Shown here: positions 8,061 through 15,648 of the stretch, piece after piece
Position numbering within the stretch: position 1 is the first letter of the stretch
How the letters are laid out: the number at the start of each line of letters is the position of its first letter
Virus record (IMG/VR): IMGVR_UViG_3300013093_000056
Span: 1-55,927 of that record
Origin: a virus
Length of the DNA: 55,927 nucleotides
Reading direction: 5' to 3' (one strand)
Translations under genes and position numbers: made by a program
Notes under the pieces: model-generated
What the model was told of the DNA's origin: nothing
What the model saw: only the letters and a program-made list of their open reading frames with translations
Databases searched by the model: none

Positions 8061-8087
8061 ATTGTTGACTTGCTAATTATTTTATGC

Positions 8088-8095
8088 TATAAATA
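8088..8095 (+). promoter_or_regulatory. T4-type late promoter TATAAATA (tmRNA)
   Basis: Exact match to the T4 late promoter octamer. A start a few bases downstream (about 8101) would coincide with the 5' end of the tmRNA acceptor segment. The same octamer occurs before late structural genes in this window, and a gp33-like late co-activator is encoded just downstream. Confidence 0.65.
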
Positions 8096-8101
8096 TAATG
8101 C

Positions 8102-8167
8102 TGATGTTGTTGACATCTAGTAGAATAGACATTCTGGACCTGGGGGCAGTACCCAGCGCTTCCACCA
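8102..8167 (+). ncRNA. ssrA: tmRNA acceptor piece
   Basis: Contains the hairpin CTGGG-loop-CCCAG acting as the T arm (8138-8156 region), the 3' half of the acceptor stem CGCTTCC (8157-8163), the discriminator A and an encoded CCA (8165-8167). Upstream are small hairpins (GATGT/ACATC and AGAAT/ATTCT). It would be charged with alanine; I did not verify the G-U identity pair beyond noting two G-U pairs within the acceptor stem. Confidence 0.8.
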
Positions 8168-8244
8168 AAGGTACATATGAGGGTTGAAGTCCCTAGTTGT
8201 TTGGCGGTAGCGGAACATTCCAGCCTCGGGTATGTATCTTTGAT
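8168..8244 (+). other. tmRNA intervening segment (excised)
   Basis: Between the encoded CCA and the mature 5' end of the coding piece. AAGGTACATA (8168-8177) pairs with TATGTATCTT (8231-8240) in a 10-bp helix with one G-U, extending the acceptor stem in the precursor, as expected for a loop removed during maturation. A small AGGG/CCCT hairpin (8180-8194) lies inside. Confidence 0.75.
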
Positions 8245-8402
8245 GGGGGCGAAATAGGATCGACAGGTGTAGTAAAGACAAGATCGAGACTGAAGCAAAC
8301 TCGTAAATGCAAACGATAACAATGCATATGGTGCTTACGCTCTAGCAGCTTGAGTCACATGAGCTTCGTGGGTTGTGCTTGGAAACAGAAACAGCCCACA
8401 CT
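8245..8402 (+). ncRNA. ssrA: tmRNA coding piece
   Basis: Starts with the 5' acceptor strand GGGGGCG, followed by GAAATAGGATCGACAGG and the conserved-looking AGATCGAGACTG before the resume codon. After the tag stop come a 9-bp helix and the end of the RNA, before the next gene's ribosome site at 8418-8423. Confidence 0.8.
8309..8353 (+). other. tmRNA proteolysis tag reading frame
   Basis: Resume codon GCA (8309-8311) opens a 14-codon frame ending with TGA (8351-8353). The peptide ANDNNAYGAYALAA starts with the ANDN typical of tmRNA tags and ends in ALAA, the ClpXP recognition terminus. Confidence 0.88.
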
Positions 8403-8430: not shown

Positions 8431-8646
8431 ATGACAAAAACACCTTTTGAAATTAGATTTGATTTATTAAATTTTGCTCAAAGTCAATTGTCTAGTGAAT
8501 ACTATGCATCTTTAGAGCTCGTTCGTGAAAAGACATTAGAAAATTCCATCGAACGAAAAGTAGCAGCAGAAAACTTAAAATATCCAACAAAAGATGATAT
8601 TATTAAATTGGCATCAGAACTCAAAGAGTTTGTTGATAGCAAGTAA
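8431..8646 (+). CDS. Conserved T4-like phage small protein (71 aa)
   Basis: Begins MTKTPFEIRFDLLNFAQ and has a C-terminal YPTKDDIIKLASELKEFV. I recognise this as a small conserved hypothetical of T4-like marine phages with a TPFEIR/LDLL opening. Predicted all-helical; function unknown. The strong ribosome site AAAGGAG (8418-8424) decides the start against longer in-frame options that would run into the tmRNA. It probably shares the tmRNA late transcript. Confidence 0.8.
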   Translation: MTKTPFEIRFDLLNFAQSQLSSEYYASLELVREKTLENSIERKVAAENLKYPTKDDIIKLASELKEFVDSK

Positions 8647-8692: not shown

Positions 8693-8926
8693 ATGAAATT
8701 AAAAAATATTAAGTCGTCCTCAGATTTTGTAAAAGAGATTGAAGTATTAGTAGTAGAAAAAAATATTGATTTTTTTGAAGCTGTGATGTATTATTGTGAG
8801 ACTAAAGGTATTGAAGTTGAAACTGCTGCCTCATTAATTAAACAAAGCACAACTCTCAAAGCCAAGATACAATTTGAAGCAGAGAACCTTAACCTCTTGA
8901 AAAAGACAGCGAGACTTCCTATATGA
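8693..8926 (+). CDS. 33: Late transcription co-activator, gp33-like
   Basis: In T4, gp33 bridges host RNA polymerase and the sliding clamp to activate late promoters recognised by gp55. The core here (IEVLVVEKNIDFFEAVMYYC, then FEAENLNLLKK) lines up by eye with the T4 gp33 core (an IIEKMVEEFGMSYLEA-like helix and a SEAIDENLL-like end). The protein is shorter than T4 gp33 (77 against 112 aa), missing mainly the N-terminal extension. It overlaps the following cupin gene by 4 bases. The presence of TATAAATA late promoters in the window fits this assignment. The alignment is from memory and should be confirmed by profile search. Confidence 0.7.
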   Translation: MKLKNIKSSSDFVKEIEVLVVEKNIDFFEAVMYYCETKGIEVETAASLIKQSTTLKAKIQFEAENLNLLKKTARLPI

Positions 8927-15603: not shown

Positions 15604-15616
15604 TGTAAGTTCTCAC

Positions 15617-15624
15617 TATAAATA
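15617..15624 (+). promoter_or_regulatory. T4-type late promoter TATAAATA (plus, gp48 operon)
   Basis: Exact octamer 24 bases before the gp48 start codon, giving a short leader that includes AGGAG at 15639-15643. Confidence 0.75.
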
Positions 15625-15631
15625 TATTCAG

Positions 15632-15639
15632 TATTTATA
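15632..15639 (-). promoter_or_regulatory. T4-type late promoter TATAAATA (minus, gp4 operon)
   Basis: TATTTATA on the plus strand, an exact late octamer for the minus strand, 28 bases from the gp4 start codon. It faces the plus-strand octamer at 15617-15624, only 7 bases away. Confidence 0.75.
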
Positions 15640-15648
15640 GGAGCAATA

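Follow-up and report, generated by a model that had tools for sequence, protein, structure and literature searches.

A permuted two-piece tmRNA gene behind a probable composite sigma70 and late-type promoter in T4-like phages

As an explanation for the tmRNA genes of lytic phages we found a single published proposal for this group, which rests on an 'early promoter'. In a set of 133 unique phage tmRNAs, 53 were predicted to be two-piece (PMC9004378, 2022). Two-piece tmRNAs have been published for methylophage Melnitz, where the gene adjoins gp33, and for pelagiphage Mosig; the Melnitz authors assigned the tmRNA to an early promoter and proposed that it acts early, with early tagging of host proteins (PMC9004378). 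Here we analyse a related locus in IMGVR_UViG_3300013093_000056, for which the window is the whole 55,927-nt stretch of that record. A first-pass annotation made from the sequence had presented the locus with an implied novelty that is overstated, given that phage two-piece tmRNAs have been in print since 2022 (PMC9004378). A phage two-piece tmRNA is not new, and the one in the window belongs to a kind known from a few marine phages. The parts worth following are a composite promoter and the linkage to gp33: the promoter, which is conserved, offers a concrete, testable alternative in which tmRNA expression would extend to the late phase.

The window gene is confirmed as a permuted two-piece tmRNA, with a score far beyond chance. 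The RF01849 (alpha_tmRNA) model matches positions 8061-8400 over its full length (1-355) at 129.5 bits (E = 4.5e-35), and RF04321 (tmRNA_permuted) matches 8105-8353, again over the full model, at 107.6 bits (E = 4.4e-20), ending at the stop codon; the Rfam gathering cut-offs are 50 and 47 bits, respectively. These scores, with the T4 core genes described below, bear out the first-pass reading of a permuted two-piece tmRNA in a T4-like phage, and the covariance-model check that it had proposed yields a high-scoring alpha_tmRNA match that includes both pieces. Apart from the two tmRNA models, Rfam returned only a chance microRNA match in the window region at E-values up to 5. ARAGORN found nothing when run on the window gene in every mode, so routine annotation would miss this tmRNA.

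All parts of the gene lie on the + strand. The acceptor piece (8101-8167, 5' end predicted), delimited with RF01849 and RF04321, stands upstream of the coding piece (8245-8400, with a 3' end predicted at ~8400, where the RF01849 match stops). It contains a T arm (CTGGG / GGCAGTA / CCCAG, 8140-8156, from the Rfam alignment and direct reading), the 3' strand of the acceptor stem with U70 (CGCTTCC, 8157-8163), the discriminator A at 8164 (direct reading) and an encoded CCA (8165-8167). The 5' strand of the stem, GGGGGCG with G3 (8245-8251, direct reading and fold), opens the coding piece. The earlier coordinates of CGCTTCC, CCA and GGGGGCG are all correct on the sequence; the description of the stem as pairing completely stands in that 7/7 positions pair, but two of the pairs are G-U wobbles (3-70 and 4-69), the former being the G3-U70 alanine identity pair. 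Between the pieces lies a 77-nt intervening segment (8168-8244), for which removal is expected; its fold is a long hairpin (-30 kcal/mol, z = -3.1) closed by 10 bp, with an outer helix nearly continuous with the acceptor stem. The coding piece contains the conserved GAAATAGGATCGAC segment and, as had been claimed, an intact tag frame with a stop (8309-8353), ANDNNAYGAYALAA at 8309-8350 followed by TGA at 8351-8353 (direct reading and RF04321). It ends in a 9-bp 3' hairpin (GTGGGTTGT / ACAGCCCAC, 8368-8399), supported by the fold and by pairing in phage loci. The limits first assigned to the locus also agree with these features: 8102 is within ~1 nt of the predicted transcription start at 8101, and 8402 is near the base of the 3' hairpin (8399). 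With model scores above gathering, an acceptor piece with CCA upstream of the coding piece, G3-U70 and an open tag frame that has a hydrophobic degron end and a stop, the window tmRNA is real and functional-looking.

For comparison, a pattern scan of IMG/VR returned at least 120 stretches, from which 108 distinct phage-side loci were parsed for both pieces. The bacterial comparison set comprised 156 alpha ssrA genes; the bacterial contig scan with the pattern used returned almost only Rhizobiales, and a low-GC control set was taken from low-GC alphaproteobacterial genomes of 0.6-2 Mb. Acceptor-stem pairing and the tag frame, the loss of which in related phages would have counted against the first-pass reading, are both retained, although stem retention is partly built in because the locus finder demanded at least 6/7 acceptor pairs. 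G3-U70 is kept in 108/108 listed phage and 156/156 bacterial genes, and 13 of the 108 phage loci have exchanged C6-G67 for U6-A67. Tags were read in 95/108 listed phage loci by a finder that sought an alanine- or glycine-like start; 91 start with AND or ANE and 78 end in LAA. A 3' hairpin of at least 7/8 bp is present in 68/96 listed phage loci, compared with ~11 expected when arms are swapped between loci, the best arm offset being used for the count and chosen alike for the control. Apart from this offset choice and the tag start, the compensatory exchange, the tag frames and the 3' hairpin are not built in by the finder. The ends of the intervening segment pair with each other in most listed phage loci, usually over 8-10 bp. 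The median length of this segment is 83.5 nt in phage loci L001-L124 (some >250) versus 34 nt in bacteria; in the longest phage segments the CCA positions may be mis-assigned.

Upstream of the gene, window positions 8065-8095 (+) read TTGACT-17nt-TATAAATA. By direct reading, the -35 element TTGACT (8065-8070) lies 17 nt upstream of TATAAATA (8088-8095), which is preceded by an extended -10 TATGc (8083-8087) and can be read in two ways: its first six bases are a sigma70 -10 hexamer, TATAAA, and the whole is an exact T4-type late octamer. The combination occurs once in the window, with ~0 expected, and the sigma70 and late readings both predict a start at ~8101, where the acceptor piece begins. 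The first-pass annotation had suggested action late in infection; the octamer gives this some basis, but late alone is incomplete, given the near-consensus sigma70 site. NATAAATA has been described for cyanophage S-PM2, and overlapping early and late promoters for RB49 and cyanophage 'middle' genes (PMC2984593). The latter resemble the window promoter in having sigma70 and late elements before one gene (PMC2984593) and differ in that the window promoter serves a structured RNA gene and that its boxes, here and in relatives, are often fused into one -10 region. Elsewhere in the window, divergent copies of TATAAATA at 15617 (+) and 15639-15632 (-) lie between a head closure gene (-) and a baseplate tube cap gene (+); these octamers, within 15604-15648, occupy a site at which late promoters of the T4 type are to be expected.

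The composite arrangement is common among the phage loci, not universal. TATAAATA is found upstream of 79/108 listed phage tmRNAs versus 0/156 bacterial ssrA genes (Fisher, 3e-43), and with GC < 0.45 in 72/100 listed phage loci versus 0/36 bacterial ones; it is also absent from 19 further distinct loci of low-GC alphaproteobacterial orders. The listed loci are related by descent and their counts are not independent events, yet the upstream spacers have diverged and 73 of the 79 remain after dereplication. When these 73 upstream regions are aligned on the octamer alone, cTTGACa appears at exactly 17 nt together with an extended -10 TATG, and the spacer is unconserved; with the -35 as the sole anchor, exact TATAAATA follows 17 nt downstream in 53/73 listed loci. 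In related listed phages TTGAC or TTTAC exactly 17 nt upstream is the rule, and the octamer lies 54-71 nt before CCA. Within the same listed loci, a -35 at 16-18 nt accompanies 57/79 tmRNA TATAAATA sites versus 4/85 other TATAAATA sites. Other loci, such as L051, L082, L100 and L105, read TATAATATAAATA, a consensus TATAAT -10 plus a separate late octamer, and in L086 and L087 the TATAAT -10 and TATAAATA boxes are further apart; such separate elements in several phages argue for selection on both. The octamer is missing in 29/108 listed phage loci, isolate Mosig among them, and HTVC008M is without it too. One of the 19 low-GC loci (L361) itself looks phage-like. It belongs to a bacterial assembly (G312) in which a single tmRNA of the chromosomal type (185 bits) is accompanied by two permuted ones that score lower (~108-110 bits; L361, which is G312:C5, and G312:C3). 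With TTGACA-17-TTTAAATA upstream, L361 probably represents phage DNA inside a bacterial assembly.

The window genome is T4-like, with gp32, a gp59 domain, RNase H, tail tube, head closure, DNA end protector and baseplate proteins as T4 core genes. The gene order is RNase H, PhoH, exonuclease, two 2OG-Fe(II) oxygenases, the tmRNA, a 71-aa ORF and a gp33-like gene, followed by cupin, gp59, gp32 and then tail and baseplate genes; the series tmRNA, gp33, gp59, gp32 echoes the T4 order, 33-59-32. The ORF directly downstream of the tmRNA (8431-8646, +), with AAGGAG ahead of it, belongs to no known family and had no match in Pfam, PHROGs or 50,697 phage records. Behind it, the gp33-like late-transcription coactivator gene (8694-8926, +) resembles Melnitz QZI94373 and Mosig QOI69109, the latter annotated as 'putative late promoter transcription accessory', and is probably co-transcribed with the tmRNA. 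A search profile built from the gp33-like proteins of the window, Mosig and Melnitz recovered a gp33-like ORF in 55 listed phage loci, always downstream on the tmRNA strand and mostly within ~1.1 kb, which is shared synteny among related phages and not 55 independent events. The synteny points to excision of the tmRNA from the gp33 transcript leader. No gp55 or gp45 was identified among the window proteins scanned in this 56-kb fragment. The baseplate and gp32 proteins are nearest, at 35-53% identity, to a mix of DLP6, HTVC008M, Cr30, Rhizobium phages and cyanophages, which sets the window phage apart as a lineage of its own, without a closely related isolate.

The explanation that we regard as best, and hold with good confidence, is a phage two-piece tmRNA expressed both early and late that uses host SmpB. 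The analysis shows the gene, its structure, the promoter elements with their conservation and the gp33 synteny; processing, charging, SmpB use, timing and benefit are inferred. The composite promoter, together with the accepted idea of overlapping promoters in RB49 and cyanophages, leads us to propose expression of the window gene in both the early and the late phase. Host sigma70 RNA polymerase would use TTGACT-17-TATAAA early, with a start at ~8101, and gp55/gp33-type phage late machinery would use TATAAATA late, and the tmRNA is thus probably made throughout infection. The transcript probably extends to include the 71-aa ORF and gp33. Excision of the hairpin between the pieces (8168-8244) would leave the acceptor and coding pieces held together by the acceptor stem; host AlaRS would charge the CCA via G3-U70, host SmpB would deliver the charged tmRNA to stalled ribosomes, and products given the tag ANDNNAYGAYALAA would be degraded by host proteases such as ClpXP. 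No SmpB gene was found in the 16 phage records searched, complete Melnitz and Mosig included; absence from the fragmentary records proves little. The likely benefit is that ribosomes are kept free during host mRNA breakdown and heavy phage gene expression. More broadly, we lean, with some reserve, towards a large T4-like group keeping an alpha-type tmRNA first in the gp33 transcript, under a composite promoter, where it would supplement or replace host rescue during all of infection with its output tied to the late switch.

It is unlikely that the tmRNA is an early gene only, as has been proposed for Melnitz, transcribed from a sigma70 promoter of the host type in which TATAAATA is merely an AT-rich -10 region. 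TTGACT-17-TATAAA with its extended -10 is indeed near the sigma70 consensus, and the Melnitz authors name their promoter early (PMC9004378). However, sigma70 has no need of the two bases that end the octamer, yet the exact octamer recurs in 53/73 listed loci when the -35 is the only anchor; in several phages a consensus TATAAT is retained with TATAAATA as an additional, separate element, and sampled bacterial ssrA genes, low-GC ones included, never carry it. The Melnitz gene itself has TTGACA-17-TATAAATA, which makes the published early-only reading incomplete.

Acceptor stem, G3-U70, tag frame and stop persist under divergence, and a decoy would not need them. We therefore find it improbable that the phage RNA acts against the host by competing with or inhibiting host tmRNA/SmpB instead of performing full trans-translation, although phage tags are unlike sampled host tags and a tag-less tmRNA-like RNA of phage DS6A is reported to inhibit E. 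coli tmRNA when expressed (PMC11915505). That the gene is a captured host fragment, decaying or mainly a leader of gp33, seems very improbable. The tmRNA does sit before gp33 in many phages, and ssrA fragments occur at prophage junctions; but the tag frame is intact in most related listed loci, the stem shows compensatory exchange, the gene has its own promoter and there is no close bacterial donor within the sample.

The first-pass annotation had also taken the permuted architecture to point to the host, which does not hold up: permuted tmRNAs occur in phages of OM43 (Melnitz) and Stenotrophomonas (DLP6) as well, and among the loci listed the nearest tmRNA from a sampled bacterium reaches 46% identity versus 71% for another phage. 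On these grounds we rejected the tmRNA as a basis for assigning the host: when a phage carries the permuted form, this does not mark which bacterium it infects. Alphaproteobacterial ssrA genes (RF01849) share the permuted order, the acceptor and T arm, G3-U70 and an AND...AA tag with the window tmRNA, whereas they have shorter intervening segments, no TATAAATA and, behind a 5' hairpin, a CTATGGnnATAAA segment that is missing from the window. Stenotrophomonas, the host of DLP6, is a gammaproteobacterium. A blastn match in Streptomyces phage TunaTartare was set aside as not permuted; it fits the standard-form tmRNA model (RF00023).

The Methylophilales phage Melnitz likewise has a permuted alpha-type gene upstream of gp33 with TTGACA-17-TATAAATA, but differs in its 142-nt intervening segment, its tag (ANDNYVPVDYALAA) and a glutamine riboswitch 3' of the tmRNA; a Melnitz-like riboswitch in the intervening segment or leader was rejected for the window locus, where none was found at E-values up to 5. 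The Pelagibacter phages Mosig and HTVC008M also have a permuted tmRNA upstream of gp33, without TATAAATA in front and with the tmRNA gene overlapping the end of the upstream ORF. Such genes go unannotated, in the window (ARAGORN) as well as in the HTVC008M and DLP6 records. In HTVC008M (NC_020484.1, L336) the permuted tmRNA at 145161-145370 (90.6 bits; ARAGORN tag ANFNEYALAA), upstream of gp33, is missing from the record and overlaps the annotated end of I899_gp194. In DLP6 (KU682439.2, L335) a permuted tmRNA at ~102838-103059 (RF04321, 136.8 bits; tag ANDDSFAPMAIAA), inside a tRNA cluster, is absent from the record annotation and from the DLP6 paper. In one listed phage locus (L084, 12995-13192) the tmRNA core is nearly identical to that of the window up to the resume codon and the tag differs (ANDNFAPSLALAA), which suggests faster turnover of tags than of the remaining tmRNA.
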